DNA from: Burkholderia metallica | GTDB taxonomy: Bacteria > Pseudomonadota > Gammaproteobacteria > Burkholderiales > Burkholderiaceae | Direction: 5' to 3' | Length of the DNA: 64,000 nucleotides | Assembly (NCBI RefSeq): GCF_902832845.1 | Contig: NZ_CADFDB010000015.1 | Span: forward strand, 93,383 to 157,382 | In this document: positions 30,429 through 63,682 of the stretch, piece after piece | How positions within the stretch are numbered: the first letter of the stretch is position 1 | Layout of the letters: each line of letters starts with the position of its first letter | The notes under the pieces: model-generated | Told to the model about the DNA's origin: nothing | The model's database searches: none | What the model saw: the letters and a program-made list of their open reading frames with translations, nothing else | Position numbers and translations under genes: made by a program

Positions 30429-30445
30429 GTTAACGAATTCTTAAG
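30429..30445. promoter_or_regulatory. PmrA/QseB-like box (GTTAAC-N5-CTTAAG)
   Basis: Two TTAA half-sites spaced 11 bases apart in the divergent interval between the cytochrome b562 gene and the response regulator at 30542. It is one of nine such sites in this island. Confidence 0.6.
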
Positions 30446-30541
30446 GACTGGATTTTTCCGATACTCGCTTGATGCCTGCCCGTGCCTGCGGTTATCGTGC
30501 CGCAATGGACGCTATGTCTGGACAAACGGGAATGCGACACC

Positions 30542-31204
30542 ATGCGGGTACTACTCGTGGAAGACGACAAGCTGATCGGCAGCGGAGTGGAAGACGGCCT
30601 GATCGAGGCCGGCATGACAGTCGACTGGGCGCATGACGGCAGGCATGCGCAGCTGGCGCTCGAAACCACGCCATATGATCTCGTCGTGCTCGACCTCGGC
30701 CTGCCCCGCTTGTCTGGAATCGAGCTGCTGGAGTGGGTTCGCAAGCGCCGTAACCATACCCCCGTAATGGTGATGACGGCGCGTGATACGGTGGCAGACC
30801 GCGTGAGCGGCTTGACTGCAGGCGCCGACGACTATCTTGGCAAGCCGTTCGATTTGACCGAGCTGATCGCGCGCTGCCGGGCGCTGGTGCGGCGCTCGCA
30901 GGGGCGCAGCACCGATACGATCGAGCATGGCGACATGTCGATCGATCCTGCTCTGCTGACGGTGACACGCGGAATCGAGCGCATCGTGCTGACTTCGCGC
31001 GAATGTGCTCTATTAGTCGAGTTGCTTGCGAATCAGGGCCGTCCACTCTCTCGCGCGCGTCTCCAGGACAGTCTCTACGGCTGGAACGAGGAAATAGAGA
31101 GCAACGCGATCGAAGTGCACGTTTCGAATCTGCGCAAGAAACTCGGTGCTGATCTGATCCGCACGATTCGTGGCGTCGGGTATGTAGTGGAGAAGGCATC
31201 GTGA
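30542..31204 (+). CDS. OmpR/PmrA-family response regulator
   Basis: This 220-residue regulator has a receiver domain with phosphoacceptor Asp51 (VVLDLGLP), the TARD and KPF motifs, and a C-terminal winged helix (NEEIESNAIEVHVSNLRKKLG...GVGYV). The sequence type is that of PmrA/QseB/IrlR regulators. Its stop overlaps the sensor kinase start (TGATG), so the two form an operon. A direct-repeat box sits 97 bases upstream, consistent with autoregulation and control of the divergent cytochrome genes. The ATG at 30542 gives the usual length. Confidence 0.92.
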   Translation: MRVLLVEDDKLIGSGVEDGLIEAGMTVDWAHDGRHAQLALETTPYDLVVLDLGLPRLSGIELLEWVRKRRNHTPVMVMTARDTVADRVSGLTAGADDYLGKPFDLTELIARCRALVRRSQGRSTDTIEHGDMSIDPALLTVTRGIERIVLTSRECALLVELLANQGRPLSRARLQDSLYGWNEEIESNAIEVHVSNLRKKLGADLIRTIRGVGYVVEKAS

Positions 31205-32553
31205 TGCGATCGATTCGGCAACGGCTTACCTTGCTGGTGCTGTCGGGGGTCGTCGCTGTCTGGGCATACTCGCTGGTTTCAAGCTATCGCCAGGCAATTC
31301 ACGAAGCCGAGGAATGGGACGAAACACGCATCGAGCAAATCGCCCGGGCGTTTGCCGCGCTAGACGCGACCGATCTCCCGGTCTTTGCGGGAATCGTCAT
31401 CGGTGCAGGCGAAGACGACGATGGCGACAACGACGCGTCCCCACGGATGCTGTACGAAGTGAGCGCAACAGACGGACGCATTCTGGCTGCCAGTCAGGGG
31501 TTGGACACACTCGATCTGCCGACGTTGCCTTCGGCAGCATCCTTCCCGATCCGGTCCGGAAATCCGAAATGGCACGCCTACGTGCTAACCGATGCTGCGC
31601 GCGGCCGGACTGTGCGCATCTTCGAACAACGTACGCACCGCTCGGATCTGTCCGCCGAGGTTGCACGTCGCGTTGCGCGGCCGCTCGCATTCGCGCTGCC
31701 CGTGATGGCCGTATTGATCTGGCTGGCGATCGGTCGCAGCCTGACGCCATTGCGAACGCTGTCCGAGGCGATCGTGGCACGTTCACCTGACAGGCTCGAT
31801 GCCATTGGCACAAAGGGCATTCCGGACGAGGTGCGGCCGCTGGTCGCCGCGCTTAACACATTGTTGGAACGTCTGCGCGGCTCGCTCGATCGTGAGCGAG
31901 CATTTACGAGCGACGCAGCACATGAGCTCAAGACCCCGCTTGCAGCACTCAAGGTCCAGGCGCAGGTGGCGCTCACGGCGCGTGATCCGGAGCGCCAGAG
32001 GCGCGCAATGGAACGGGTTGTGGAGGGTGTCGACCGGAGCACCCATCTGGCGGACCAGTTGCTCGCACTGGCGCGACTAGACGAAACCATCCCGTTGCCC
32101 GGCGAGCCCGTTGATCTCGCACGCTTGGTGCAGACATGCGTGAATGACCATCAGGCGCGCGCGGATCGAAAACGGATGTCGCTGACGACACGCACTGACG
32201 AGGGCACTATCGTCCATGCGCCGCCGACGTTGGTTCGCGTCTTGCTCGACAATCTCGTCGATAACGCGATCAAGTATGGTCGGGAGCAAGGGAATGTTGA
32301 AATCGCGACGTGGCGAGATCCCGGCATGATTCGTATTGAGGTACGGGACGACGGCCCCGGTGTCTCGGACGGTAATCTGTCCAGACTGCACGACCGCTTC
32401 TTTCGCGGCGCGGATCATGACGAAAGCGGCAGCGGACTGGGGCTGTCAATCGTCGCACGCATCGTGACCAAACTCGGCGGGAGTTTCGCGTACGTCATCG
32501 GGTTGAACGGAACGGGGTTCGGCGTGCGTGTCGTCTTGCCTGTGTCGAACTGA
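31204..32553 (+). CDS. Sensor histidine kinase, QseC/PmrB type
   Basis: This is a 449-residue inner-membrane kinase. Helices at about 9-28 and 160-180 enclose a periplasmic domain with an acidic patch (AGEDDDGDND), followed by HAMP. The HisKA box AAHELKTPL has phosphoacceptor His240, and the ATPase domain reads NLVDNAIKYG...DDGPGVS...GSGLGLSIV. The acidic cluster might bind cations, which is an inference. A GTG three bases earlier is an alternative start. It is the partner of the regulator immediately upstream. Confidence 0.9.
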   Translation: MRSIRQRLTLLVLSGVVAVWAYSLVSSYRQAIHEAEEWDETRIEQIARAFAALDATDLPVFAGIVIGAGEDDDGDNDASPRMLYEVSATDGRILAASQGLDTLDLPTLPSAASFPIRSGNPKWHAYVLTDAARGRTVRIFEQRTHRSDLSAEVARRVARPLAFALPVMAVLIWLAIGRSLTPLRTLSEAIVARSPDRLDAIGTKGIPDEVRPLVAALNTLLERLRGSLDRERAFTSDAAHELKTPLAALKVQAQVALTARDPERQRRAMERVVEGVDRSTHLADQLLALARLDETIPLPGEPVDLARLVQTCVNDHQARADRKRMSLTTRTDEGTIVHAPPTLVRVLLDNLVDNAIKYGREQGNVEIATWRDPGMIRIEVRDDGPGVSDGNLSRLHDRFFRGADHDESGSGLGLSIVARIVTKLGGSFAYVIGLNGTGFGVRVVLPVSN

Positions 32554-32863
32554 TGCGGTATCAACGGCATGACGATGGCTCTCTCCACCGAACAAGGCCG
32601 GCGATGCGTGGCATGGCCGAATGAAGCGCGCCGTCTCGATTGGAGATGTTCGGTATAGGGTGGGCAGATTCCAGTCTGTCGATCTCTTCCACGACATATA
32701 AATTGAGGGTCGAATCTGGTGCGTTCTCTTCGGGCTGGGGCAACCAGAGTAATGCGGCGGCAGTCCATTTGTTCGGCGGGAACCTTGTCGCGCGCCCTGT
32801 TTTGAGGTTGTACCCGAAGCAATGTGGCATCGATAAAGCCGGAGAATCCGTCTCGCGTCAGAC

Positions 32864-32886
32864 CTTCCCAAAACTGTCACATTTCA
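32864..32886 (+). promoter_or_regulatory. Possible PhoB half-site upstream of pstS
   Basis: CTGTCAC followed by ATTTC, with an A-rich spacer before it, matches one half of a Pho box. The expected second repeat is poor (CCTTCCC). It lies about 48 bases before the pstS start. The evidence for phosphate control is weak. Confidence 0.3.
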
Positions 32887-34705: not shown

Positions 34706-35395
34706 GTGCGCGTTCTCGTTATCGAAGACGACGCCAGCATCGCGGCCAATCTCTACGACTATCTGGAGAGTACTGGCTACGAAGTCGATATGGCCTTGAA
34801 CGGCCCTGCCGGCCTGAAGCTAGCTGTGTCGCAGTCCTGGGATGCAATCCTTCTCGATCTTTCGTTGCCGGGGATCGATGGGCTGACGCTATGCCGCAAG
34901 CTCCGCGAAGAAAACCATCGCGATACGCCGGTGCTGATGCTGACGGCTCGGGACACGCTGGACGACAAGCTCGACGGCTTTGATCACGGCGCCGACGACT
35001 ATCTCGTCAAGCCATTCTCGCTCAAGGAAGTCGGCGCGCGCCTCGGCGCGCTGGTCAAGCGCTACCGAGGGCAGGTTGCCGAGACCGCGCTGTGTTGCGC
35101 CGATGTCCGCCTCGATCTGAAGACACTGACAGTCGAGCGCGCCGGGCGGCCGGTGAAGATACCGCCCAAATGCCTGCATCTGCTGCGTCTGCTTATGCAG
35201 ACGCCGGGCCGGGTGATAGGTCATGCGGAGCTCGAAGCCGAAGTATGGGGCGACGCGCTGCCGGACAGCGACACGCTGCGCACGCACGTCTACACGTTGC
35301 GTCGCGCGCTCACCGCGCAGGGTGAACGTGACCCGATCGAAACCGTTCATGGTCTCGGCTACCGGTTCGTGGCGGGCGACGATCGTGCGCTTTAG
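34706..35395 (+). CDS. OmpR-family response regulator
   Basis: The 229-residue protein starts at GTG 34706. It has a receiver domain with Asp51 (ILLDLSLPGIDG), TARD and KPF motifs, and a winged helix (PKCLHLLRLLMQTPGRVIGHAELEAEVWG...VHGLGYRF). It overlaps the sensor kinase by 11 bases. Position directly upstream of an RND efflux operon suggests it controls that operon in response to the sensor's signal. The winged helix is of a different subtype from the three other regulators of the island. Confidence 0.9.
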   Translation: MRVLVIEDDASIAANLYDYLESTGYEVDMALNGPAGLKLAVSQSWDAILLDLSLPGIDGLTLCRKLREENHRDTPVLMLTARDTLDDKLDGFDHGADDYLVKPFSLKEVGARLGALVKRYRGQVAETALCCADVRLDLKTLTVERAGRPVKIPPKCLHLLRLLMQTPGRVIGHAELEAEVWGDALPDSDTLRTHVYTLRRALTAQGERDPIETVHGLGYRFVAGDDRAL

Positions 35396-48291: not shown

Positions 48292-48950
48292 CCTGGCACT
48301 CCGATCCGGTAGCCGATGCCCCGTACGGTCACGATGATGTCCGTACCGAGCTTCTGGCGCAAATGATGAATGTGAACCTGGACCGTGTTGCTCTCGACTT
48401 CCTCGTTCCATCCGTACAGGCATTCCTCGAGATGCTCTCGAGTAACGATCCCCTTTGGACGGCGGATAAGTTCCTCCAGGATGGCAAACTCCCTTGCCGT
48501 AAGCGGCACTTCTTCGGCTCGGAGCCAGACGCGGTGTTGCGCCGGATCGAGCCGTAGTGTGCCGGACTGGAACACAGTTTGCGCACTTCCAGTTTGCCTG
48601 CGGGAAACGACGCGGATTCGCGCGAGCAGTTCTTCCAGCGCGAAAGGCTTGACAAGGTAGTCATCCGCACCGGCATCCAGGCCAGCCACGCGATCGCCAA
48701 TGGTGTCGCGGGCCGTGACGATGATAACCGGGGTCGGGTCGTTGCGTTGGCGCAACCTGGCGAGGACAGATGAACCGTCCTCTCCGGGGAGTCCGAGATC
48801 GAGCAGGATCAGACCGTACTGTGTCGAGCGCAATGCGGTCGACGCGGCCTCGCCGTCCCGTACCCAGTCGACAGCGAATCCAGAATGCCGTAGCCCGCGC
48901 AGCAAGCCATTGCCAATCAGCGCATCGTCCTCTACCAGCAAAATACGCAT
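48288..48950 (-). CDS. OmpR/QseB-family response regulator
   Basis: The 220-residue regulator has Asp51 (LILLDLGLPGEDG), TARD and KPF motifs, and a winged helix with LYGWNEEVESNTVQVHIHHLRQKLG, the signature of the PmrA/QseB group. Its start lies 19 bases inside the end of the upstream DUF4148 gene, so DUF4148, regulator and kinase form a single operon. A PmrA-like box at 49344-49360 precedes that operon, consistent with autoregulation. Confidence 0.92.
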   Translation of the reverse strand: MRILLVEDDALIGNGLLRGLRHSGFAVDWVRDGEAASTALRSTQYGLILLDLGLPGEDGSSVLARLRQRNDPTPVIIVTARDTIGDRVAGLDAGADDYLVKPFALEELLARIRVVSRRQTGSAQTVFQSGTLRLDPAQHRVWLRAEEVPLTAREFAILEELIRRPKGIVTREHLEECLYGWNEEVESNTVQVHIHHLRQKLGTDIIVTVRGIGYRIGVPG

Positions 48951-49282
48951 GCCGGCTCCGTTTCGGTTGATCGCGATGACGTTATCGCGGCATTGCCCTC
49001 TAGCAGTGCATACGAAGGCGAATGGACCTGTGGTACGGAGCTGATCGCCGCCTGTTGGGCAAGGCTCTCGGTAAGTTCACTCGAAATGGTCGCTGCTGCG
49101 GCCTGGATCAGAGCGGTATACCGGTTGTCCTTTCTCGATGGATAGTAGCCGGCGTCTTCGAACTGGATCAGTTGATTGTGCACCCGCAACCGGGTGAGCG
49201 GCATGCCCGGCGTCTGAGAAATCGCAAGTACCGGCACGAACATCGTCGCTGCCAGAACCGTATACCGCACTGCTGAACCCAT
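48932..49282 (-). CDS. DUF4148 exported protein
   Basis: The 116-residue protein has a signal peptide (VLAATMFVPVLAISQT) and the DUF4148 core: LTRLRVHNQLIQFEDAGYYPSRKDNRYTALIQAA. This family is almost confined to Burkholderia and relatives and is thought to be periplasmic. The C-terminus ends CVFCW, with a CxxC. The gene overlaps the response regulator start by 19 bases, an unusually tight link between a periplasmic protein and a two-component system. Confidence 0.75.
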   Translation of the reverse strand: MGSAVRYTVLAATMFVPVLAISQTPGMPLTRLRVHNQLIQFEDAGYYPSRKDNRYTALIQAAAATISSELTESLAQQAAISSVPQVHSPSYALLEGNAAITSSRSTETEPACVFCW

Positions 49283-49343: not shown

Positions 49344-49360
49344 CTTAAGGAATGGTTAAC
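49344..49360. promoter_or_regulatory. PmrA/QseB-like box (CTTAAG-N5-GTTAAC)
   Basis: Half-sites 11 bases apart, about 62 bases before the DUF4148-regulator-kinase operon start. Confidence 0.6.
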
Positions 49361-49483: not shown

Positions 49484-49500
49484 CCTAAGCTTTCCCTAAG
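49484..49500. promoter_or_regulatory. PmrA/QseB-like box (CCTAAG-N5-CCTAAG)
   Basis: An exact direct repeat with the same 11-base period, upstream of the small exported protein at 49719 and divergent from the DUF4148 operon. Confidence 0.5.
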
Positions 49501-49718: not shown

Positions 49719-49961
49719 ATGAAACCGCCTATCAATGCCTTGCTGGCTTTAGTACTTGCTATGGTTCCCGCTTTTGCTTCCGCGAAGGTTCAGGGTACCG
49801 GTATCGCGATCGCGGATGTCACGCTCGAACGCATAAGGGTCGAACGTGAAGATCGTGCGATCGATGACGCTCGACACGCGGCGGAGCGACCGATGTCGAC
49901 GACATCGCGGGAGGGGAAGGGTGCGCAAGTGCGTGACGCCGGGAAGGCATTGCAGCGCTAA
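49719..49961 (+). CDS. 80-residue exported hypothetical protein
   Basis: It has a clear signal peptide (NALLALVLAMVPAFASA) followed by a short charged region (VTLERIRVEREDRAIDDARHAAERP). It is probably periplasmic or secreted. The ribosome binding site is weak. It lies in the interval between two DUF4148 genes and downstream of a regulator box. No family is recognised. Confidence 0.6.
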   Translation: MKPPINALLALVLAMVPAFASAKVQGTGIAIADVTLERIRVEREDRAIDDARHAAERPMSTTSREGKGAQVRDAGKALQR

Positions 49962-50177: not shown

Positions 50178-50483
50178 TCAGTGATGCCGGTACAACTGGC
50201 TCTGGTCATTCTTCCACACATGCTGTCCTGACGCGGCCTGGTTAGCAGACTCGCTTCCGACACCGCTGCCGGTTCGTTCAAGCGAAATGCGCCGCTCGGC
50301 GGCCTGAATCGAGTCAGGGTAGTTCGGATCCTTGCGCGACGGAAAATAGCCGGCTTTTTCGACCTGAACCAGTTGCGCACGCACCTGAGCGCGGGTAAGC
50401 GATGCATTGCCGGATTGGGCGAATGACGTCACCGGAGAAAGCACGGCCAGCGACAGAGCGAGCAGCTTGAGTTTCACGTTCAT
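50178..50483 (-). CDS. DUF4148 exported protein
   Basis: The 101-residue protein has a signal peptide (LLALSLAVLSPVTSFAQ) and the DUF4148 core LTRAQVRAQLVQVEKAGYFPSRKDPNYPDSIQAAERRI, a textbook match. The tail is Ser/Gln-rich and ends with RHH. It is a probable periplasmic protein of unknown role. A CTTAAG-N5-GTTAAC box lies 83 bases upstream. It is one of three paralogues in the window. Confidence 0.85.
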   Translation of the reverse strand: MNVKLKLLALSLAVLSPVTSFAQSGNASLTRAQVRAQLVQVEKAGYFPSRKDPNYPDSIQAAERRISLERTGSGVGSESANQAASGQHVWKNDQSQLYRHH

Positions 50484-50565: not shown

Positions 50566-50582
50566 CTTAAGATGCGGTTAAC
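50566..50582. promoter_or_regulatory. PmrA/QseB-like box (CTTAAG-N5-GTTAAC)
   Basis: Located upstream of the DUF4148 gene at 50178-50483. Confidence 0.6.
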
Positions 50583-50715: not shown

Positions 50716-50732
50716 GCTAAGGTAAGGCTAAG
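50716..50732. promoter_or_regulatory. PmrA/QseB-like box (GCTAAG-N5-GCTAAG)
   Basis: An exact direct repeat 57 bases before the PepSY gene start. Confidence 0.5.
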
Positions 50733-50788: not shown

Positions 50789-51121
50789 ATGTATCGCTAT
50801 ACCCGACTTTCTGTTCTTGCCGTTTTGGTCGCAGCGGGTGTCGCCGCAGCTTATGCTGCGAACGGCAATGGGGAAAACGACGCAATGTCGATCGTGCACG
50901 CACCCGTAACGCTCGCACAGGCAGTGACTGCCGCTGAACAGCACGTGCACGGCAAAGCTGCGCGGGCAGAGTATGAAAACTCAAAGCAAGGCTGGGTGTA
51001 CGACGTCGAGGTGGTCGGCGACGGCAAGGCATACGACGTTCGTGTCGACGCGAACAAGGGAACCGTCCTCGCTTCCACCGTCGACATTGCCGATCGCGAC
51101 GACCACGACGCGCTCGACTGA
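50789..51121 (+). CDS. PepSY-domain periplasmic protein
   Basis: This 110-residue protein has a signal peptide (LAVLVAAGVAAAYA) and a PepSY domain (VTLAQAVTAAEQHVHGKAARAEYENSKQGWVYDVEVVGDGKAYDVRVDANKGTVL). It ends in an acidic DDHDALD. Such proteins are often cotranscribed with or regulated by two-component systems and may modulate periplasmic signalling. A regulator box precedes it, and a second lies between it and the efflux operon. Confidence 0.87.
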   Translation: MYRYTRLSVLAVLVAAGVAAAYAANGNGENDAMSIVHAPVTLAQAVTAAEQHVHGKAARAEYENSKQGWVYDVEVVGDGKAYDVRVDANKGTVLASTVDIADRDDHDALD

Positions 51122-51186: not shown

Positions 51187-51203
51187 GTTAACGCGCGCTT
51201 AAG
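51187..51203. promoter_or_regulatory. PmrA/QseB-like box (GTTAAC-N5-CTTAAG)
   Basis: About 89 bases before the start of the second efflux operon. Confidence 0.6.
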
Positions 51204-51291: not shown

Positions 51292-52683
51292 ATGGTTGAA
51301 TACACTCTGTCGATCCGTTGGAAGTCGGTATCGTTGTGCGTTGCGTTGTGCGGCTTCATCACCGGTTGCACGACCTATCAGGCAAAGCCGCTTTCTCAAG
51401 TATCGACCGCGCTGTCTCAGCACGATCTGGCTCGCTTCGAGATCGATCCCGGGAAAATGCCGTTACCCGAGCTCACGGCGCATCGCTTCGATCCGTCCGG
51501 CGGCTTCGACATCGAGGATGTTGCGATGCTAGCTGTTGCAAACAACCCGGATCTGAAGCTTGCGCGCGACGACCTAGGTATTGCGCAGGCTCAGGCTTTC
51601 GCCGCCGGGCTTCTGCCCGATCCACAGCTGTCTGTATCGAGCGATTTTCCGGGAGCAGCGGGACTCGAGCGCGCGTTCAACTACGGGTTGAGCATGGATC
51701 TGATGGCGATCGTATCGCGAAGCGCCAACAAGCAGTCCGCGACCGCGACCGTGCGCAAGACAGACCTTGGGTTGTTGTGGCAGGAGTGGCAAGTCGTCGC
51801 TCAAGCCAAGCAGCTTTATACAAAGACTCGTTATGAAGACGCCGTACTGCCGCTGCTGAAGCAGGCGCTCAATCTTGACCAGACGCGCTACACCCGGCTC
51901 GAGCATGCCCGGCAGTCCGGGAACACGACCGATGACGTCGTGAGTGTCGCATTGACGACATACAGTGACGCGCGCAAGCAATATGACGACATGGTTCGTG
52001 CCCGCGCGCAGACGCATCATGACCTCAACCTGCTGCTGGGGATTGCACCCGACGTCGAGCTGAAGCTCGTCGGTTCGAGCAGGACGAAACCGCTGGCGAG
52101 CGCGTCGCTCGAAGCCGCATTGGCAGCGTTGCCTAAGCGACGCCCTGACTTGATTGCGCTGCAGGCAGGCTACGAAGCGCAGGAGCAGAAATACCGCGCC
52201 GCGATCCTCAACCAGTTTCCGAGCCTGACTGTCGGATTCGATCGCGCACGTGACACGTCCGGCATCTATACGACCGGCTTCCAGATCGCATTGAGCCTGC
52301 CGATCTTCAACCGCAACCGCGGCAATATCGCGATTGAACAGGCGACTCGTCAGCGTCTCGGCGACGAATATCAGGTCCGGCTGAATGCTGCGTACGCAGA
52401 CATTGCACATGTGCGCAACGATTCACGCCTCGCGACCGAGCAGCTCGCGCAGGACGAGGCAGCACTGCCGGCGCTCGTGCAAGCAGCCGGGCACGCACGG
52501 AACGCGTTCGCGGCACACGATATCGCGATGGGGCAGTACGTCGATGCGCAGCTCGCCGCGCTGACAAGGCAGATTGATGCGGAAACCCAACGCGATGCGC
52601 TTGCCGAACAGCGTATCGGTCTGCAAGCGCTACTCGGCAGTGCGATCCCGGACGCATTCTCCACCGACTCCACTCAGCGTTGA
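51292..52683 (+). CDS. TolC-family outer-membrane efflux lipoprotein
   Basis: The 463-residue protein has a lipoprotein signal (LCGFITGCTTYQ) and the helical repeats of CzcC-like channels (NNPDLKLARDDLGIAQAQAFAAGLLPDPQLSVS, then QIALSLPIFNRNRGNIAIEQATRQRLGDEYQVRL). It forms the outer-membrane duct of the second RND system. The upstream frame to 51169 lacks a signal and is not used. The stop is followed four bases later by the adaptor start. Confidence 0.86.
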   Translation: MVEYTLSIRWKSVSLCVALCGFITGCTTYQAKPLSQVSTALSQHDLARFEIDPGKMPLPELTAHRFDPSGGFDIEDVAMLAVANNPDLKLARDDLGIAQAQAFAAGLLPDPQLSVSSDFPGAAGLERAFNYGLSMDLMAIVSRSANKQSATATVRKTDLGLLWQEWQVVAQAKQLYTKTRYEDAVLPLLKQALNLDQTRYTRLEHARQSGNTTDDVVSVALTTYSDARKQYDDMVRARAQTHHDLNLLLGIAPDVELKLVGSSRTKPLASASLEAALAALPKRRPDLIALQAGYEAQEQKYRAAILNQFPSLTVGFDRARDTSGIYTTGFQIALSLPIFNRNRGNIAIEQATRQRLGDEYQVRLNAAYADIAHVRNDSRLATEQLAQDEAALPALVQAAGHARNAFAAHDIAMGQYVDAQLAALTRQIDAETQRDALAEQRIGLQALLGSAIPDAFSTDSTQR

Positions 52684-52687
52684 TCTC

Positions 52688-53782
52688 ATGTCACCCGCTC
52701 CTGATTTTCCCTTCTCCCGCCGTCTAGCCACCGTGTCCGTCGCACTTGCCGTGCTCGTGCCGTGTGCGAGCCCCGTGCGGGCCGACGAACCTGTGACTGC
52801 ATCGGTCGATACCGTAGCAGTACACCGAGAACCGATTTCGCAGCAGGTTCGAGCATACGGCATCGTCGCGGCATCGTCGTCGAGCGTCACTTCGATCAAC
52901 CTGCCTTATGCCGCGCGCATTCGCAAGGTGCTTGTGCTGCCCGGCCAGACGGTAGCCCGCGGCGCGGCGCTCGTCGTGGTACAAGCCGACCCCGCCGCCG
53001 TACTGGCGGCATCGCAGGCCACCAGCGCGCTGACGCTTGCGCATGGCGAACTCGAGCGTACGCGCTCGCTGTTCGACGCCGGTCTCGCAACGCAATCGCA
53101 GCTTGCCGCGGCGCAGAAGGCGCTGAATGACGCGCAGCAGGGACTCGCAGCCCAGCATCAAATGGGGGTGCACGGCGGAGACGTGACGATCGCCGCGCCG
53201 TTTGCGGGTGTCGTGTCGCAGTTGACCGCGCTCCCGGGCGATCAGATCCAGGCCGGTACGACGATCGCACAGCTCGCGGCGGCCGCGAATGCGTCGAGCC
53301 GGCAAGCGAACGTGACGCTCGGTGTTGACCCGTCGGCCGCGGCGTCGATTCGCGCGGGCGATTCCGTCGTGCTGCATGGGCTGTCGACCGCGCTCGAGCA
53401 CGCTCATCAAGCGGGGCGAGTCGTCGTGGCGGGCGCGGCAATCGATCCGCAAAGCCAGCTCGTGAACGTCGGTGCGAACGTACCGCTCGACGGCACCGCC
53501 TTTATCCCGGGTACACGTGTGAGCGCCGATATTGCGACGCAGACCGGGACCTGGTGGGTGGTGCCGCGCGCCGCGGTGCTGAGCGACACGAAGGGGGCTT
53601 ACGTGTTCCAGGTGACGCCTAAGCACACTGCGCAGCGCGTCGACGTCGTGGTGCGCGTGGAAAGCGGCAACCGCTATGGCGTCGACGGACCGCTTGACAC
53701 GGCGGAACCGCTGGTTGTCACCGGCAACTACGAGTTGCAGAACGGGATGGCAGTGCGAATGGCCGGAGGCGCGCGCCAATGA
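52688..53782 (+). CDS. RND periplasmic adaptor protein
   Basis: This 364-residue adaptor has an N-terminal signal (VALAVLVPCASPVRA), a lipoyl-type domain (YAARIRKVLVLPGQTVARGAALVVVQAD), a helical hairpin (LAHGELERTRSLFDAGLATQSQLAAAQKALNDAQQ) and barrel domains (VSADIATQTGTWWVVPRAAVL). It is of the HlyD/AcrA-like type with no metal-binding tail. Its stop overlaps the pump start by four bases (ATGA). Confidence 0.88.
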   Translation: MSPAPDFPFSRRLATVSVALAVLVPCASPVRADEPVTASVDTVAVHREPISQQVRAYGIVAASSSSVTSINLPYAARIRKVLVLPGQTVARGAALVVVQADPAAVLAASQATSALTLAHGELERTRSLFDAGLATQSQLAAAQKALNDAQQGLAAQHQMGVHGGDVTIAAPFAGVVSQLTALPGDQIQAGTTIAQLAAAANASSRQANVTLGVDPSAAASIRAGDSVVLHGLSTALEHAHQAGRVVVAGAAIDPQSQLVNVGANVPLDGTAFIPGTRVSADIATQTGTWWVVPRAAVLSDTKGAYVFQVTPKHTAQRVDVVVRVESGNRYGVDGPLDTAEPLVVTGNYELQNGMAVRMAGGARQ

Positions 53783-56700
53783 ATTTCGGCCAATGGATGC
53801 AGATGCATCGACGATCGCTGCTGTTTGTCGTGGCGCTGCTTGCAGTCGCCGGCGCGCTGACGGCCTTTCGGTTACCGATCTCGTTGTTTCCGAACGTGTC
53901 GTTCCCGCGCGCGGTCGTTTCGCTCGATGCGGGTGACCGGCCGGCCGAACAGATGGCGACGCTTGTCACGATGCCGGTCGAAGAAGCGCTGCGGCGCGTG
54001 CCCAACGTGCGCGACGTCGAGTCGAAGACCAGCCGGGGATCGGCCGAGATCTCGCTTAACTTCGACTGGGGCACCGACATGGCGCAGGCGACGCTGCAGG
54101 CGCAGTCCGCAATTGCCGAAATCCTGCCGTCGTTGCCGCCCGGTACGAAGATGCAGGTGAAGCGGATGGATCCCACCGTGTTCCCGGTGCTTGCCTATAG
54201 CCTCACGTCGTCGCAGCAATCGCTTGCGCAACTTCGCGATCTCGCGCAGTTCCAGTTGCGGCCGCTGCTGTCGTCGGTCGACGGCGTCGCGCGCGTCGAA
54301 GTGACCGGGGGGGCGCAGGACGAGTTGCAAGTCGCCATCGATCCCGCCCGGCTCGCGGCGTACAAGCTGTCGGTCGAGAACGTATCGAAGGCGATCGGTG
54401 CGGGCAACGTGCTGATGGCGACCGGACGGATCGAGGACCACTACAAGCTGTACCTGATTGTCGCGGATACCACGATTACGTCACTCGATACGCTTCGCAA
54501 CGCAGTCGTGTCGTCTGCGGGCGGCGGTCAGGTACGTGTCGGCGACATCGCGACCGTGTCGCGCGGCACGGCTCCGCAATGGATACGCGTCACGGCGGAC
54601 GGGCAGGACGCGGTCCTGGTCAATGTATTCCAGCAGCCGGGCGCGAATAGCGTCGCGATGGCCAAGGAGATCCGCGCGAAGCTGGCCGCTTTCGAGAAAC
54701 AAATGCCGCCGGGCGTGCACCTGGCGAATTGGTATGACCAGAGTCAGCTCGTGATCGCGTCAGCATCGAGCGTGCGCGACGCGATTCTGATCGGCGTGGT
54801 CCTGGCTGCATTCACGCTTTTCGTGTTCTTGCGCAACTGGAAAATCACCGCGATCGCCGTTGCGCTGGTGCCCGTCGTGATGAGCGCGACGATCCTGCTG
54901 CTCGATGTATTCGGAATGGGCTTCAACATCATGACGCTCGGCGGGATGGCCGCGGCGGTGGGGCTCGTGATCGACGACGCAATCGTGATGATCGAGCACA
55001 TCGCGCGCCGCATGCGAGAGGCGGGTGCCCATGCATTCCACGGCCGCGTGATGAGCGCGGCCCTCGAATTCACGCGTCCGCTTGCGGGATCGTCGGCCGC
55101 AACGCTGATCATCTTCGTCCCCCTCGCGTTCCTGTCGGGCGTGACGGGCGCATTTTTCAAGGCGCTGTCGATCACCATGGCGAGTGCGCTGTTCATTTCG
55201 TTCGTCGTGAGCTGGCTCGCCATTCCGATTCTGTGCGATCACTGGCTGACGCCCGCCGATGCGGAGGAGCATCGCGAGTCGCGTCTGTCTCACTGGATGA
55301 GCACCCGCTATGCGGCCCTGATCGAACGAGTAAGCGGCAAGCCGTTGCTTGCCCTGGCAGGTGTGGTGCCGCTTCTGATCGTGGCCGCGCTGGCGTTTAC
55401 GCGTGTCGGTAGCGGGTTCATGCCGTCGATGGACGAGGGCGGGTTCGTGCTCGACTATCACACGGCGCCTGGAACATCCATATCCGAAACGGATCGTCTG
55501 ATGCGTGAAGTCGAGACGATCATTCGCGAAAACCCGAACGTCGCGACGTATTCCCGACGCACCGGTGCGGGCCTCGGCGGCGATCTGAACGAACCCAACA
55601 GGGGCGACTTCTTCGTGCGCCTGAAGTCGGGTTCGCGCGAGCCAATCGATACGGTGATGGAGGAGATCCGGTCTAAAATCGAAGCAAACGTTCCGGGCGT
55701 GAGTATCGAACTCGCTCAACTGATGGAGGACCTGATAGGTGACCTGACCGCGGTGCCGCAACCGGTGCAGATCAAGATCTATTCGGATGATCCTCACGTG
55801 CTGGATTCGACAGCAAGGCGGGTCGCGGCGCGGATCGGAAAAATTCAAGGCATCGTCGACGTCGACGACGGCATCAATCCGGCAGGCGATGCACTCGACC
55901 TTCACATCCGGCCCGATGCGGCAGCGGCGGAAGGCATGGATCCGCAGGCGATCGCGCAGCAAGTGTCGGATCTGCTCGAGGGTAACGTCGCCACGCAATT
56001 CCAGCAGGGACCCAAGACGGTCGGGGTGCGCGTGTGGGTCGCGAATGCGATGCGCACGAATGGCACGGGGCTTGGAGAACTGCAGATCCGCGCGCCTGAC
56101 GGGCACCTGTTCCCGCTCGACCGGGTGACCGATCGCATCACGGTCAGCGGTCAGCCGGAGATCAGCCGCGACAACCTGAAGCGAATGGTAGCCGTCACGG
56201 CGCGAATCGACGGACGCGACCTGGGCTCGACGATCGCGGACGTGCAACGTGCGCTCGGCGAGGCGAATCTGTTGCCGCCCGGCGTGTATTACGAGCTCGG
56301 CGGGCTGTATCAGCAACAACAGATCGCATTCCGCGGACTGCTTGCCGTGTTTGGTGCCGCCGTGGCGCTGGTTTTCGGCCTGCTGCTGTTCCTCTACGAG
56401 CGGTTCCGCGTCGCGCTCGCCGTGATGGCTATGCCGCTGTGCGCGACCGGCGCGGTTTTCATCGGACTGTGGGTGACGGGCATCGAGCTGAACATTTCCG
56501 CGATGATGGGGATGACGATGATCGTCGGTATCGTGACCGAAGTCGCGATCTTCTACGTCTCCGAGTTCCAGGCGCTCGTGCGCGATGAGGGAATGGCGCC
56601 CGATGTCGCGCTGCTCGCTGCCGGCCGCAACCGGTTGCGGCCGATTGCGATGACGACGATCGCTGCGATCCTGGCATTGCTGCCGCTTGCTTTCGCGCTC

Positions 56701-56847
56701 GGTCAGGGTTCGGCGATGCAGCAACCTCTGGCGGTGGCGATCATATCTGGGCTCATCGTACAGCTTCCGTTGGTTTTGCTGGTTTTGCCGGTTCTATTGC
56801 GTGTACTGGTTGCGAGATCAGGGTCGGAAGAACTGACGGACCAATGA
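53779..56847 (+). CDS. RND efflux pump
   Basis: This 1022-residue pump has the full RND architecture. Helix 4 carries the DD pair (VGLVIDDAIVMIEHIARRM, about residues 394-412). The N-terminus AFRLPISLFPNVSFPRAVVSLDAGDRPAEQMATLV differs from the first pump and points to a CzcA-related but distinct subfamily. It should drive export of a toxic substrate with protons; the substrate cannot be predicted. It is the third gene of the operon and is followed 88 bases later by a response regulator. Confidence 0.9.
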   Translation: MNFGQWMQMHRRSLLFVVALLAVAGALTAFRLPISLFPNVSFPRAVVSLDAGDRPAEQMATLVTMPVEEALRRVPNVRDVESKTSRGSAEISLNFDWGTDMAQATLQAQSAIAEILPSLPPGTKMQVKRMDPTVFPVLAYSLTSSQQSLAQLRDLAQFQLRPLLSSVDGVARVEVTGGAQDELQVAIDPARLAAYKLSVENVSKAIGAGNVLMATGRIEDHYKLYLIVADTTITSLDTLRNAVVSSAGGGQVRVGDIATVSRGTAPQWIRVTADGQDAVLVNVFQQPGANSVAMAKEIRAKLAAFEKQMPPGVHLANWYDQSQLVIASASSVRDAILIGVVLAAFTLFVFLRNWKITAIAVALVPVVMSATILLLDVFGMGFNIMTLGGMAAAVGLVIDDAIVMIEHIARRMREAGAHAFHGRVMSAALEFTRPLAGSSAATLIIFVPLAFLSGVTGAFFKALSITMASALFISFVVSWLAIPILCDHWLTPADAEEHRESRLSHWMSTRYAALIERVSGKPLLALAGVVPLLIVAALAFTRVGSGFMPSMDEGGFVLDYHTAPGTSISETDRLMREVETIIRENPNVATYSRRTGAGLGGDLNEPNRGDFFVRLKSGSREPIDTVMEEIRSKIEANVPGVSIELAQLMEDLIGDLTAVPQPVQIKIYSDDPHVLDSTARRVAARIGKIQGIVDVDDGINPAGDALDLHIRPDAAAAEGMDPQAIAQQVSDLLEGNVATQFQQGPKTVGVRVWVANAMRTNGTGLGELQIRAPDGHLFPLDRVTDRITVSGQPEISRDNLKRMVAVTARIDGRDLGSTIADVQRALGEANLLPPGVYYELGGLYQQQQIAFRGLLAVFGAAVALVFGLLLFLYERFRVALAVMAMPLCATGAVFIGLWVTGIELNISAMMGMTMIVGIVTEVAIFYVSEFQALVRDEGMAPDVALLAAGRNRLRPIAMTTIAAILALLPLAFALGQGSAMQQPLAVAIISGLIVQLPLVLLVLPVLLRVLVARSGSEELTDQ

Positions 56848-56935
56848 ACCGGTTTTCCGATGTTGGCGGCACGGGCGGCTAATGGCGAACGAGGCGGCCT
56901 GCATACTCGATCGGCTTGTGACGAAGGGGAAATGA

Positions 56936-57601
56936 ATGCGGGTGCTTTTGATCGAAGACGATGCGATGATCGGCGAGTCGGTTCAGGACGCATTGAAAGA
57001 TGCTTCTTACGCGGTTGACTGGGCTACAACGGGTACGTCCGCATCCACGGCGCTGGAGAACCAGCACTACGATCTGGTAGTGCTCGATTTGGGCTTGCCG
57101 GGCAAGGACGGGCTCGACGTACTGACTGGCATCCGGGCGATGGGAAATACTGTTCCGGTCGTGGTCGTCACCGCCCGGGACGCGCTCGACGACAGGCTGC
57201 GAGGGCTGGACGGCGGTGCCGACGATTACGTCTTGAAGCCATTCGAGATAGCGGAGTTGCTGGCACGTTTGCGTGCCGTGCTTCGACGCAAAAATGGCGG
57301 GGCCACACCGACACTGGGCAACGGTGCAGTATCGCTCGATCCTGCAACCCGCGAAGCTTCGGTTCATGGCGGCCCGCCACTCCAACTGACCAACCGTGAA
57401 TTCGCGCTGTTGCGCGCGTTGCTCACGCGTCCAGGCGCAATCCTGTCGCGTAACGATCTGGAGGACCGCATCTATGGATGGGGCGAGGAGGTCGAAAGCA
57501 ACGCCGTCGAGTATCTAATTCATTCGCTTCGGCGAAAGCTCGGTGGCGAGATCATCAGAAACGTCAGGGGGGTGGGATGGATGGTTTTAAAAAACGTCTG
57601 A
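56936..57601 (+). CDS. OmpR/PmrA-family response regulator
   Basis: The 221-residue regulator has Asp51 (LVVLDLGLPGKDG), TARD and KPF motifs, and the GWGEEVESNAVEYLIHSLRRKLG winged helix of the PmrA/IrlR group. It sits downstream of the efflux pump and overlaps the sensor kinase start by 25 bases. No separate regulator box is seen in the 88-base gap, so it may be cotranscribed with the pump. Confidence 0.92.
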   Translation: MRVLLIEDDAMIGESVQDALKDASYAVDWATTGTSASTALENQHYDLVVLDLGLPGKDGLDVLTGIRAMGNTVPVVVVTARDALDDRLRGLDGGADDYVLKPFEIAELLARLRAVLRRKNGGATPTLGNGAVSLDPATREASVHGGPPLQLTNREFALLRALLTRPGAILSRNDLEDRIYGWGEEVESNAVEYLIHSLRRKLGGEIIRNVRGVGWMVLKNV

Positions 57602-58965
57602 ACGCATCGATTCAGTTCAAGCTGTCCTTTACGCTATCGGTGTTGATTCTCGCCATTGCTGCTTTGGCAGGCGCCTTTTCGTTCGTCTCTGCGCTCGACG
57701 AAGCGCATGAACTACAAGACGACGTCCTGCGGCAAGTGGCTCATCTGATGGATCGTGGCTCGCTTTCACCGACCCAGTCGGTCACAGATAACCTACGCAA
57801 AGACGGGGACGAAGAGTCGCGCGTGATCGTTCAGCGACTGGGCGACGGAATCGGCTCTTCGGTTGGTGTAGACGCAGGAGGGGCATTACAGCTCCCCCCG
57901 ACGTTGGCCGATGGCATGCATACGCTGGATGTCTCTGGCGAATCGTTTCGCATACTGGTGCGTACCACGGCATCGGGAACCAGGATTGCGGTCGCACAGG
58001 AGTCTGCGTTTCGGGACGAGATCGCGCGGGACGGGGCCCTACGAACCGTGATGCCGTTTCTTGTGCTCGTACCGCTGCTTCTCATGATCGTCGCCAATCT
58101 GGTGCGGAAGATGTTTCTGCCGGTTGTTCTGTTGGCGACCGAGATCGATCAGCGCGACGAGCGGGAGCTTCACCCCATCGAGGCCGAAAATATACCGGCG
58201 GAAGTTCGACCGTTCGTCGTAGCGATGAACCGCTTGCTCGGTCGCGTTGCGCAGTCGGTCGACACTCAGCGACGTTTCGTTGCCGATGCCGCGCATGAAC
58301 TGCGATCGCCGTTGACGGCTTTGTCGTTGCAGGCGGAGCGAATGGCGGAAGTCGACATGTCCGTCACAGCACGGGATCGGCTTGCCGTCTTGCGGCGCGG
58401 CATCGAGCGCGGTCGACGGCTGCTCGACCAGCTTTTGGCACTGGCCCGGGCACAGTCATCCGATGGTGGGGCGTCGGTCTCTTCGGTTTCCGTCCAGCAC
58501 GTATTTCGGAACGTCCTTGAAGACATGTTGCCGTTGGCCGAGACGAAGAACATCGACATTGGCGTGGAGGGAGACGACGACTGCTACGTATGCGCAACCG
58601 AACTGGATATGACCGCGCTCGTCAAGAATCTTGTCGACAATGCAGTTCGCTATACACCTGAAGGAGGGCGGATTGATCTATCGGTGGTGGAAAGCAACAA
58701 GCGCGCGGTGATTTGGATCCGAGATACTGGCCCGGGCATCCCGCTCGCCGAACGGGATCGCGTCTTCGATCCGTTCTATCGCGCATTAGGGAGTGGGCAG
58801 GCCGGATCCGGGCTTGGTTTGTCCATTGTGAAGACCATCGCCAGCAAGATTGGAGCCGAGCTCGACCTGAAATTCGCCGACCCGTCCCGACAATGCGGGC
58901 TGATCGCCACGGTCCTGGTTCCGATATCGGATCGCGCATTAGACAAGCACACCAGATCGCCATAA
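57577..58965 (+). CDS. Sensor histidine kinase
   Basis: This is a 462-residue kinase. Membrane helices lie at about 15-40 and 158-178 around a periplasmic sensor, followed by HAMP and the HisKA box DAAHELRSPLTAL (His240). The ATPase domain reads NLVDNAVRYT...DTGPGIP...GSGLGLSIVK. The ATG at 57577 lies within the regulator gene. It is convergent with and only three bases from the DUF2127 gene. Both the signal and the substrate of its efflux system are unknown. Confidence 0.9.
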   Translation: MDGFKKRLNASIQFKLSFTLSVLILAIAALAGAFSFVSALDEAHELQDDVLRQVAHLMDRGSLSPTQSVTDNLRKDGDEESRVIVQRLGDGIGSSVGVDAGGALQLPPTLADGMHTLDVSGESFRILVRTTASGTRIAVAQESAFRDEIARDGALRTVMPFLVLVPLLLMIVANLVRKMFLPVVLLATEIDQRDERELHPIEAENIPAEVRPFVVAMNRLLGRVAQSVDTQRRFVADAAHELRSPLTALSLQAERMAEVDMSVTARDRLAVLRRGIERGRRLLDQLLALARAQSSDGGASVSSVSVQHVFRNVLEDMLPLAETKNIDIGVEGDDDCYVCATELDMTALVKNLVDNAVRYTPEGGRIDLSVVESNKRAVIWIRDTGPGIPLAERDRVFDPFYRALGSGQAGSGLGLSIVKTIASKIGAELDLKFADPSRQCGLIATVLVPISDRALDKHTRSP

Positions 58966-58968
58966 CAC

Positions 58969-59744: not shown

Positions 59745-60056
59745 TCAGTGATGCAGATAAATCGAGCGAGGCGAGACATGTGTCGTGATGGGATGTCCCG
59801 AGTTGCTACCTGCGGATTGTGCGGAACCGTAACCTGTTGTATCGGCCTGTGCTGTCGACTCGGACGAGTGCAGGCGTGCTTCTGCCTGCTGAATGGATTG
59901 CGGATAGTGAATGTCTTTGCGGGCCGGGTTGTATCCGGCTTGCTCGATCTGAACGAGTTGCGCCCGAACTTCCGCCCGAGTAAGACCTTGTCCCGCGAAC
60001 GCAAGTGCAGGAACAACCGCAAGTGCCAGCATGACGGTGCGAATGGTGAGCTTCAT
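59745..60056 (-). CDS. DUF4148 exported protein
   Basis: The 103-residue protein has a signal peptide (VMLALAVVPALAFAGQ) and the DUF4148 core LTRAEVRAQLVQIEQAGYNPARKDIHYPQSIQQAEARL. The tail is Ser/Gly-rich. It is very similar to the copy at 50178, with the same length and end (a terminal LHH against RHH). A CTGAAG-N5-GTTAAC box lies 77 bases upstream. The function of the family is unknown. Confidence 0.86.
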   Translation of the reverse strand: MKLTIRTVMLALAVVPALAFAGQGLTRAEVRAQLVQIEQAGYNPARKDIHYPQSIQQAEARLHSSESTAQADTTGYGSAQSAGSNSGHPITTHVSPRSIYLHH

Positions 60057-60132: not shown

Positions 60133-60149
60133 CTGAAGATAATGTTAAC
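60133..60149. promoter_or_regulatory. PmrA/QseB-like box (CTGAAG-N5-GTTAAC)
   Basis: One mismatch from the pattern; located upstream of the third DUF4148 gene with the 11-base period kept. Confidence 0.5.
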
Positions 60150-60241: not shown

Positions 60242-60270
60242 AAAAAAAAGACCCGGACTCGCACCGGGTC
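60242..60270 (-). terminator. Rho-independent terminator, minus strand
   Basis: Stem 60250-60256 with 60264-60270 (GACCCGG/CCGGGTC), followed on the minus strand by eight T residues (60242-60249). It would stop transcripts coming from the small membrane-protein gene at 60727-60858. Confidence 0.8.
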
Positions 60271-60414
60271 GAACGAGCGAGGTAAATGGGCAAGCAACGA
60301 ACATCAAGAGTCTCGACCGCTGCTTGCCGCGTTTACCGTCACTCTGCGTGGACGAACGAAACAAGAATCACGCCGTCTCGAACCAGCGTGACTTATACAC
60401 GGTGCCATGCCATG

Positions 60415-60431
60415 CTTAAGTTATCCTTAAG
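60415..60431. promoter_or_regulatory. PmrA/QseB-like box (CTTAAG-N5-CTTAAG)
   Basis: The most perfect copy of the pattern. No intact gene follows closely; a pstS fragment begins at 60547, so its target may have been lost. Confidence 0.6.
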
Positions 60432-60546: not shown

Positions 60547-60643
60547 GATGGCATTTCCCTGTCGATATCCGTCGTGAACGAAATTCGCCCGCAGTGGACC
60601 GCGAAAGTGAAAAGCGTCACTGGTAAGTCCATTGCTAAACAAG
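60547..60643 (+). pseudogene. C-terminal fragment of a pstS-like gene
   Basis: The translation DGISLSISVVNEIRPQWTAK followed by VKSVTGKSIAK aligns with the last residues of the PstS encoded at 32928-33956 ([20 protein letters not shown], then [13 protein letters not shown]). The upstream part of the gene is absent and the stop is displaced. It is the scar of a deletion of a second pstS copy. Confidence 0.7.
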
Positions 60644-61422: not shown

Positions 61423-61429
61423 GTGATCA

Positions 61430-62250: not shown

Positions 62251-62348
62251 TGAACGTAGCCGGGAGTGTCACGGCCACGGACGCACGCAGCATCGTCAGC
62301 GCCAGGCGAAGCAATGCGAGCGTGGCCGACTTGCAACTTGCACCCAAC

Positions 62349-62801
62349 TCAGGAATTCCTGCCCTCAAGCTTGTCAAACGTTTTCAGTAGGTCGCTCATC
62401 GCAGCCGTGCAATTGCCCTGGGTCGGGTTATCGGTACGCAGTGCTTCGAGCGCATGGTCGATTGCCTTGTCGAGTTCATGCCAATCCGTAGCCGCACGTG
62501 GTTTCAAACCGGCTTCCGCGCCATCCCAGGCAAGCTCCAAGTCCTTGATACGTGTCTTGCCACCCCCGAGATCACCCTTCGCGACGAGAGCGGATACGTC
62601 GGTCGCAATTGCACGGAACTGGGATAGGTCACCGAGTCTTGATGCGCTCGATGTTGCGCCGTGCTGCGCATCTGTCGTGCTGGACGCTGTTGCCGTCACA
62701 ACAGGACTGTCGGATTGCTTTGAGCAACCGGTGGCGAGGGCGAGCATGGTGCACGCGGAAAGCGCGACGAGCAGACGTGAAGGTGCGATTCGATCGTGCA
62801 T
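62349..62801 (-). CDS. Exported lipoprotein, unknown function
   Basis: The 150-residue protein has a lipoprotein signal ([17 protein letters not shown]) followed by a Ser/Thr-rich linker and a helical domain ([46 protein letters not shown], then [16 protein letters not shown]). This helical pattern occurs in small periplasmic proteins of Burkholderia. The start at 62801 follows CGAGGCTCTTTC. It lies 33 bases after the membrane-protein gene in the same direction. Confidence 0.7.
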
Positions 62802-62834
62802 GAAAGAGCCTCGCATCGAGGTTTGTTAAGAAAA

Positions 62835-63617
62835 TCACTTGACTGCTTCTGCGCGCGCGCGACTGCTGGCACTGAACTGCGCGACAGCGACGAGCACGAA
62901 GATCACGGACAGGAACAGCAGGCTCGTCGACGCGGCACCCAGACCGAACCCGCCGTAACTGCGCGATTGCGTGAGGAGATCGCCGAGAGACGCACCGAAC
63001 GGTCGCGTGAGAATGTACGCAATCCAGAACGTGAGCACCGAGTCGACGCCGCTGCTCCATGCGACATACACTAGTGCGAGCAGCACGCCGAATATGACGG
63101 CACCCAGCGAGAAACCGAGCCCCAAGGCTTCGGTCGCGAGATCGCCCGCAGCGGTACCCAGCGCGAACGTGCATAGGATCGCGGACCAATAGAACAACTC
63201 ACGCTGCGGCGTGTCGATCGCGTCTATCGACAACGTGCCCTCGATCCGGTACCAGATCGCGAAGATCGCAGCGAGAGCGACAGCGAATACGCTCGTGCTG
63301 ACATACAAACTGACGCCGAGGCCGTCAGTCAGCAGATCGGTGATTTGCGTCCCGACGATGCTTACCAGGACGACCGTGAGCCAGTAAATCGACGGGGTGC
63401 ACCGGCGCGTGCGCATCTGCAAGACAAGCGCTATTCCAAGCAAGGACATCATCAGGACGCGGGTTAATCCTTGGCCCCAGCCTGCGTTGACTGCCAGGTA
63501 GTCGGAGGCGGTTTCACCGACCGTGGTCGACATGATCTTAATGATCCAGAACGCAAGCGTGATCTCGGGAACCTTGTTGAGCCAGCGTCTGATCGGCTTG
63601 CCAGTAGCGGTTGACAT
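62835..63617 (-). CDS. COG4705-type multi-helix membrane protein
   Basis: The 260-residue protein has about eight membrane helices arranged as two similar halves (FWIIKIMSTTVGETASDYLAV and FYWSAILCTFALGTAAGDLATE; WLTVVLVSIVGTQITDLLTDGLGV and FWIAYILTRPFGASLGDLLTQ). This is the COG4705 family of uncharacterised membrane proteins. The ATG at 63617 follows GGAGTCGCCACC. A PmrA/QseB-like box precedes it. It probably forms an operon with the lipoprotein gene. Confidence 0.82.
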   Translation of the reverse strand: MSTATGKPIRRWLNKVPEITLAFWIIKIMSTTVGETASDYLAVNAGWGQGLTRVLMMSLLGIALVLQMRTRRCTPSIYWLTVVLVSIVGTQITDLLTDGLGVSLYVSTSVFAVALAAIFAIWYRIEGTLSIDAIDTPQRELFYWSAILCTFALGTAAGDLATEALGLGFSLGAVIFGVLLALVYVAWSSGVDSVLTFWIAYILTRPFGASLGDLLTQSRSYGGFGLGAASTSLLFLSVIFVLVAVAQFSASSRARAEAVK

Positions 63618-63665
63618 GGTGGCGACTCCTCAGGAGTTATGTGTCACGCAGTCTAGTTGGGCAGA

Positions 63666-63682
63666 CTTAGGTGAACCTTAGT
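63666..63682. promoter_or_regulatory. PmrA/QseB-like box (CTTAGG-N5-CTTAGT)
   Basis: A direct repeat with the 11-base period, 49 bases before the COG4705 gene. Confidence 0.5.

Follow-up and report, generated by a model that had tools for sequence, protein, structure and literature searches.

Putative QseB/PmrA-type promoter boxes on a Burkholderia metallica plasmid, their chromosomal counterparts and a candidate small RNA

We analysed a 64,000-nucleotide stretch of Burkholderia metallica plasmid DNA, called the window below, in which short direct repeats (boxes) stand before genes that include response regulators (RR) with their histidine kinases (HK), an RND efflux pump, and DUF4148 and PepSY proteins. 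The window forms the end of contig C15, which has 157,382 bp and belongs to a 7.55 Mb genome. Its positions 46900-60600 are 100% identical to pBCEN1232 of Burkholderia cenocepacia ST32, which is typed conjugative, and related stretches occur on pB1701 of B. contaminans (90%; typed non-mobilizable) and on pBcp895-1 of B. cenocepacia (88% over 75% of the query; typed conjugative), so that two of the three closest large plasmids are typed conjugative. The original prediction had described nine such boxes as a plasmid regulon and the island as one coordinated envelope-stress response. The features are as follows, where +10 denotes a hexamer that begins 10 nt past the second half-site of the box.

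27515..28948 (-): PDZ-domain protein, trypsin-like (HtrA-like) protease, from the annotation of the identical plasmid and of pB1701
29043..29059 (-): box CTTAAG-catca-TTTAAT, TACGTT at +10, about 95 bp upstream of the PDZ/trypsin-like protease gene
29412..30377 (-): cytochrome b561 (29412-29978) and cytochrome b562 (30003-30377), Pfam PF01292 and PF07361
30429..30445 (-): box CTTAAG-aattc-GTTAAC, TAAGGT at +10 toward cytochrome b562/b561; read on the + strand toward RR1, GTTAAC-gaatt-CTTAAG
30539..32553 (+): RR1 (30539-31204, QseB/PmrA-like) and its histidine kinase, HK1 (31201-32553)
34706..35395 (+): RR2, PhoB-like, in an operon with a CzcA-like RND pump that has no exact box; outside the regulon
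46957..49282 (-): operon of DUF4148 (48932-49282), RR3 (48288-48950, PmrA/QseB-like) and HK3 (46957-48291)
49344..49360 (-): box GTTAAC-cattc-CTTAAG, CATGAT at +10, of the DUF4148-RR3-HK3 operon
49484..49500 (+): box CCTAAG-ctttc-CCTAAG, TACGCT at +10
49719..49961 (+): small hypothetical protein (annotation), secreted by appearance, target of box 49484
50178..50483 (-): DUF4148 protein (PF13663, 5.9e-15)
50566..50582 (-): box GTTAAC-cgcat-CTTAAG, GAATCT at +10
50716..50732 (+): box GCTAAG-gtaag-GCTAAG, TACCCT at +10
50789..51121 (+): PepSY protein (PF03413, 9.6e-12)
51187..51203 (+): box GTTAAC-gcgcg-CTTAAG, before the TolC-MFP-RND-RR4-HK4 operon
51292..58965 (+): operon of TolC (51292-52683), adaptor (52793-53782), RND permease (53779-56847), RR4 (56936-57601) and HK4 (57577-58965)
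59745..60056 (-): DUF4148 protein (PF13663, 1.6e-13, and annotation)
60133..60149 (-): degenerate box GTTAAC-attat-CTTCAG before DUF4148, with both half-sites unchanged in pBcp895-1 and pB1701
60243..60394 (-): candidate box-driven small RNA (sRNA) of about 150 nt, 5' end inferred
60415..60431 (-): box CTTAAG-gataa-CTTAAG, CACCGT at +10, predicted promoter of the candidate sRNA
62835..63617 (-): COG4705/DUF347 membrane protein (PF03988, 3.2e-56)
63666..63682 (-): box ACTAAG-gttca-CCTAAG, TAGACT at +10

Direct inspection showed that all nine originally predicted sequences lie where they had been placed. The pattern YTAA-N7-YTAAG matches eight of them exactly, with 60133 as a conserved near-match, and also found a tenth box, at 29043-29059, that had been overlooked. 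SYTAAS-N5-SYTAAS occurs at exactly 7 places in the 64 kb. The predicted 11-base period was borne out, since 5 pairs among the 19 STTAAS copies in the window are spaced 11 apart and no pair has another spacing between 6 and 60. Two sites are looser, 60133 with its CTTCAG half and 63666 (minus strand ACTAAG-N5-CCTAAG), and both are kept in related plasmids. Two forms can be distinguished. GTTAAC-N5-CTTAAG stands before regulator operons and one DUF4148 gene, a second DUF4148 gene having the CTTCAG half, and NCTAAG-N5-NCTAAG stands before the PepSY, DUF347 and small hypothetical protein genes. The exact sequence GTTAAC-N5-CTTAAG has 4 copies in the genome, every one on the plasmid. The box is thus a direct repeat of CTTAA-like hexamers with an 11-bp period, as in PmrA/QseB-type box regulons, and the arrangement agrees with the verified PmrA box, for which half-sites CTTAAT and CCTAAG, 5 bp apart and head-to-tail, are described (PMC3973317).

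YTAA-N7-YTAAG marks 9 distinct positions in the window, or 10 strand matches, since the palindromic 60415 was matched on both strands. The remaining 7.49 Mb has 11 distinct sites, so that the density in the window is roughly a hundred-fold higher. A first-order Markov model gave an expectation of 0.1 for the window (200 simulations, maximum 2). The idea that the motif might be equally frequent inside genes was not borne out, as all 10 strand matches fall clear of the 42 coding sequences annotated on the homologous 50 kb, of which 22.7% is intergenic. Spacing was equally distinctive: TTAA-N{0,30}-TTAAG gave 70 strand hits in the whole genome, 19 with a gap of 7 and 51 with the other 30 gaps together, and TTAAG-N{1,13}-TTAAG in 13 genomes of the genus (150 of 156 matches counted) had a gap of 6 in 86/150 rows and the other 12 gaps together in 64. 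A reversed-pattern control outnumbered YTAA-N7-YTAAG itself (45 + 61 vs 13 + 11), and likewise for the other patterns scanned; because the reversed pattern differs in composition (GAAT/AATY), it was set aside and spacing controls were taken instead.

We compared the nine boxes with pB1701, pBcp895-1 and pBPJTT of B. pyrrocinia. In 17 full-length comparisons there were 0/204 substitutions in the half-sites, 8/85 in the 5-bp spacers and 703/4277 in the flanks; partial alignments (49484/L027, 60133/L030, 29043/L029 and 29043/L030) were left out, so that 29043 stands outside the 204. Judged by these alignments, the boxes are under selection. Box 30429 is exact in pB1701 and pBPJTT and has variant forms in Caballeronia and Paraburkholderia.

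The position of the boxes relative to a -10-like hexamer was also constrained. Among 18 sites in the B. metallica genome read toward their targets, NANNNT began exactly 10 nt past the second half-site in 13 (TANNNT in 7), a count inflated by up to 2 by the orientations of 30429 and 60415, which were picked with the -10 in view. NANNNT was found at +11 in 5 of these sites and at any other offset from 3 to 25 in at most 4. The 18 do not include the RR1 orientation of 30429, the distal HtrA box, C5:399638 and C8:199327; all four lack NANNNT at +10, and counting them as well gives 13/22. Exceptions in offset were the chromosomal DUF347 and PAP2 boxes (+11) and the PspA box (+13). A box at a fixed position before a -10 element, 13/18 at +10, is what such a regulon would have, and the box is therefore where a class-II activator sits. 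At 30429 the hexamer TAAGGT, toward cytochrome b562/b561, is kept in two Burkholderia plasmids, and variant boxes in one Caballeronia and two Paraburkholderia plasmids have TATTCT or CAGCAT at the same place. Box 30429 had been assigned to the response regulator; it does lie upstream of RR1, but the -10-like hexamer is on the cytochrome side and not on the RR1 side, so assigning the box to the regulator alone is doubtful.

The boxes are not confined to the plasmid. Outside the window there are 11 exact sites, and nine of them, spread over eight loci, stand before genes. Two precede the gene of an HtrA-type protease that adjoins a two-component system; the others precede genes for a PspA/IM30 protein, a PAP2 phosphatase, an SbmA/BacA-like ABC transporter, a cytochrome b561, a DUF347 paralog and two proteins that gave no Pfam match. 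Boxes of this form thus precede chromosomal envelope genes and recur in the 13 genomes of the genus, and the description of the set as a plasmid regulon did not hold. Nor does the regulon span the island as had been proposed, since no exact box was found in the PstS/RR2/CzcA-like RND/MFS/PAP2 block (about 32.6-46.9 kb).

The DUF347 family provided a further comparison. We collected 31 DUF347 loci, comprising 30 returned by a search (46/120 genomes matched; the window's own gene included) and the chromosomal paralog of B. metallica. An exact box lies within about 250 bp upstream in 11/31 and a box with at most one mismatch in 26/31, whereas random windows of the same loci had an exact box in 2% and one with at most one mismatch in 6%. 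Three of the 15 one-mismatch cases (L101, L102 and L105) look unlike the others. At least four genera of the family have DUF347 genes with an exact box. The B. metallica genome is unusually rich in DUF4148, with 30 matches; as there are 11 exact boxes outside the window, most of these genes cannot be boxed.

At the chromosomal HtrA-type gene there are four half-sites with 11/10/11-bp spacing, that is two boxes (G000:C4:324423-324460, L069:6424-6461), and the last of them recurs in 12/150 TTAAG-repeat rows of the 13-genome scan.

From the sequence, spacing, conservation, geometry and placement of the boxes we infer binding and activation, and pairing with RR1, RR3 and RR4 or with chromosomal paralogs. 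The ten sites probably bind OmpR-family response regulators of the QseB/PmrA branch, which would act as class-II activators. A pair of regulator molecules would occupy the two 6-bp half-sites, 11 bp apart, in head-to-tail orientation, and at most sites the box would replace the -35 region, with the -10 hexamer beginning 10 nt past the second half-site. Predicted plasmid targets are cytochromes b562/b561, three DUF4148 proteins, one PepSY protein, the unnamed small exported protein, the DUF347 membrane protein, the RND pump, the structured sRNA, probably the PDZ protease, and the regulators' own operons, which would be autoregulated. The older envelope-stress regulon would be the chromosomal one, and the plasmid set, which has the same box, would be its dense satellite.

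Several observations weigh against this interpretation. Boxes 51187 and 60133 have no NANNNT at +10, and box 29043 is kept only in part in pB1701. Outside the window, C5:399638 and C8:199327 have no evident target on the side that they face, and chance may account for them; the former is beside a PMT/ArnT-like gene but faces away from it. DUF4148 genes in general are unboxed (0/21 loci, one top-ranking locus per genome), so DUF4148 was rejected as a general target class, and the box belongs to certain loci and not to every DUF4148 gene. RR1, RR3 and RR4 are all under the curated cut-offs, with 236, 231 and 220 bits against the QseB equivalog NF007663 (cut-off 345) and 229.5, 258.5 and 221 bits against the PmrA equivalog NF007928 (cut-off 330). 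Finally, their recognition helices differ (RR1 ...ESNAIEVHVSNLR, RR3 ...ESNTVQVHIHHLR, RR4 ...ESNAVEYLIHSLR). His193 and His195 are described as likely specificity determinants of PmrA (PMC3973317); the residues at these positions are H/S in RR1, H/H in RR3 and L/H in RR4, so the three regulators may not share all sites.

The assignment of three of the four regulators to the PmrA/QseB type was nevertheless upheld, in that QseB/PmrA models are the best-scoring ones for RR1, RR3 and RR4, and PhoB is for RR2. RR3 residues 1-216 of 220 align with PmrA/BasR of solved structures. The helix of RR1 equals that of a chromosomal regulator whose neighbour is likewise a boxed cytochrome b561. The closest chromosomal relative of RR3 is 66% identical and divergent from a BOF-family gene, with degenerate boxes, seen by eye, between the two. 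We take YgiW to be a member of the BOF family, so that this gene would be ygiW-like; in E. coli the gene order is ygiW-qseBC. The likeness to QseBC therefore lies in the type of regulator and in this chromosomal divergon, whereas the plasmid RR3 does not reach the cut-off of the QseB equivalog and follows a DUF4148 gene. One alternative is that a single regulator, for example the chromosomal QseB-like protein or plasmid RR3, uses all boxes, RR1 and RR4 having other sites. The relationship of RR3 to the regulator beside the ygiW-like gene and its retention of both PmrA recognition-helix histidines speak for this, but each of the three two-component system operons or divergons comes with a GTTAAC-N5-CTTAAG box, pointing to autoregulation in every case, and we consider a single regulator somewhat unlikely. 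With three regulators of different recognition helices present, the proposal of one coordinated response remained unproven as stated.

With regard to the signal, the HtrA, PspA and SbmA-type targets of the boxes suggest envelope damage. The boxed set could instead be a metal-stress regulon, with metal and not general envelope stress as the signal. In Frankia, DUF347 and a co-expressed undecaprenyl phosphatase were reported to be up with lead and proposed to be a metal export-precipitation pair (PMC4531530). Because the DUF347 and PAP2 genes are both boxed on the B. metallica chromosome, metal stress is a serious alternative, and a CzcA-like pump lies in the same island. That pump is itself unboxed, however, and the HtrA, PspA and SbmA-type targets indicate envelope damage, so that we place a metal signal on the unlikely side. 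The two signals may be linked.

The original prediction placed eight of its nine boxes upstream of operons, which held in outline; the ninth, 60415, is upstream of a likely sRNA. On the minus strand, this box and its CACCGT at +10 are followed by about 150 nt without an annotated gene and then by a strong rho-independent terminator (60270-60250 plus T8). The fold of the candidate had a z-score of -5.4 against shuffles (0/200 as good). On these sequence features, box 60415 probably drives an unannotated, structured sRNA of about 150 nt. Among four close sequences, pairing is retained despite changes on both sides in 2/41 pairs, which lie in the first hairpin, and 3 pairs are broken, in one sequence each. 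Among 11 sequences, 8/22 pairs change on both sides, with many broken cells and a covariation term of +0.19, so that covariation gives no proof of the structure. Rfam gave no match at the gathering score in the window, and relatives of the RNA gave sub-threshold matches only.

A covariance model gave 10 matches in 9/65 genomes of the genus, and a second model added one match on pBPJTT and some weak ones. The candidate family (window 60243-60394 on the minus strand; L113, L027, L028, L030 and L195-L203) has the core GUCCACGC(A/C)GAGUG and a G/C-rich terminator, mostly GACCCGG. In the 11 loci with the GUCCACGC core, a box at the promoter position is exact in 8, has one mismatch in 2 and is degenerate, by eye, in 1, and NANNNT is at +10 in 11/11; these loci are related, 5 of the 11 being close relatives, and are not 11 independent events. 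A box was found in 0/3 members of a second subfamily (L199, L202 and L211) and in none of six weak matches (L212, L214, L215, L216, L032 and L034). The sRNA is beside a DUF4148 gene and an HK1-like histidine kinase on pBPJTT and in L197.

The 60415 RNA might alternatively be a mere 5' leader of DUF4148 gene 59745-60056 and no separate sRNA, as this gene is on the same strand and begins about 190 nt past the terminator. We consider this unlikely: the strong, conserved terminator separates the two, the gene has its own conserved box (60133), and relatives of the RNA occur in other gene arrangements. Read-through from the 60415 RNA into the DUF4148 gene, as in attenuation, may occur. A P-type ATPase gene adjoins the sRNA in relatives (L028:30560-32968, annotated; L114:1733-3139, from a reading of the sequence) and is not annotated beside it in the window's plasmid.

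Two explanations of the boxes themselves fared worse. CTTAAG and GTTAAC are each palindromic, so a protein that binds inverted half-sites is conceivable, and the sites would then be repressor or auxiliary sites of another DNA-binding protein; the non-palindromic CCTAAG, GCTAAG and ACTAAG half-sites are direct repeats, a -10-like element lies at a fixed offset and the sites match the PmrA box, which make this very improbable. Chance occurrence of AT-rich motifs in intergenic DNA, where the sites do lie and where GC is 0.565, was rejected as practically impossible on spacing, density and simulation, the Markov expectation from intergenic composition being 0.085 and both the conservation and the spacing peaks contradicting it.

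Returning to regulation by QseB/PmrA-type activators, we tentatively envisage, while leaning slightly against it as a whole, that an undescribed Burkholderia sRNA family is the non-coding arm of an envelope/metal stress regulon of this type. A satellite of this regulon would reside on large plasmids, where three two-component systems that regulate themselves would converge on a common box grammar, the plasmid-specific GTTAAC-N5-CTTAAG among its forms, and plasmid and chromosome could then communicate through boxes and sRNA. The boxes offer a directly testable promoter grammar for a Burkholderia envelope-stress network and assign likely control to proteins of uncertain function, the island's DUF4148 proteins and DUF347/COG4705; the link between DUF347 and the box gives a fresh lead on this widespread protein, whose role is uncertain. 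The predicted sRNA family and the box grammar common to plasmid and chromosome are the parts that would surprise a specialist.

Known systems share some of these features. As in the PmrAB regulon of Klebsiella and Salmonella, there are two 6-bp half-sites 5 bp apart and an OmpR-family regulator; unlike in that regulon, the targets are DUF4148, PepSY and DUF347 proteins, an RND pump, cytochromes and an sRNA, and four sites are exact GTTAAC-N5-CTTAAG, plasmid-only in this genome. The BCAL2831/BCAL2830 two-component system of B. cenocepacia with HtrA resembles the chromosomal RR-HK-HtrA cluster of B. metallica, which is boxed before its HtrA-type gene. From gene order we infer that it is the same cluster as BCAL2831-2829, which is described as needed for heat and osmotic stress in a review (PMC5295037) whose available part cites Flannagan 2007 and mentions no box. 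BesRS of B. thailandensis is likewise a Burkholderia envelope-stress two-component system, induced by polymyxin B, but its reported cis element TGCGGCCACAAATTTGCACGCA is unrelated to the boxes (PMC9426598), and the BesR site was ruled out as a different sequence. AgrR of Cupriavidus metallidurans is likewise an OmpR-family, probable class-II activator and controls a small periplasmic protein; its site is an ATTACA inverted repeat with a 4-bp spacer (PMC7380067), which the boxes, compared by eye with that consensus, do not match. For GluR of B. glumae a putative inverted repeat is given, which is not this box (PMC8350040). Literature searches on Burkholderia QseB/PmrA boxes, on sRNA and two-component systems and on DUF347/COG4705 yielded no direct report of the box or the RNA among the matches listed, and the accessible portions of PMC13037405 and PMC10127602 held nothing further on the box. 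B. cenocepacia is highly resistant to polymyxins, and the main text of its polymyxin transcriptome study names no BCAL2831, HtrA or DUF4148 (PMC3190405).

Several minor observations concern individual genes and neighbouring sequences. The DUF4148 gene 48932-49282 scores 26.5 bits, slightly below the Pfam cut-off of 27, and the small protein at 49719..49961 had no match in the Pfam search. RND permease 39251-42370 scores 679.4 bits, close to but below the CusA/CzcA heavy-metal cut-off of 701.45; its operon has the PhoB-like regulator and no exact box. The otherwise near-identical pBCEN1232 (L002) has two IS256-family insertions that are absent from the window, at L002:13268-14536 and 17442-18710, located at the RR1/HK1 junction and after pstS. 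A second recurrent repeat, TTAAG-N11-TTAAG with a 16-bp period (TTAAGTTCGTCATTCATTAAG and close variants), is present at G000:C5:383613 and was found in 9/13 genomes.

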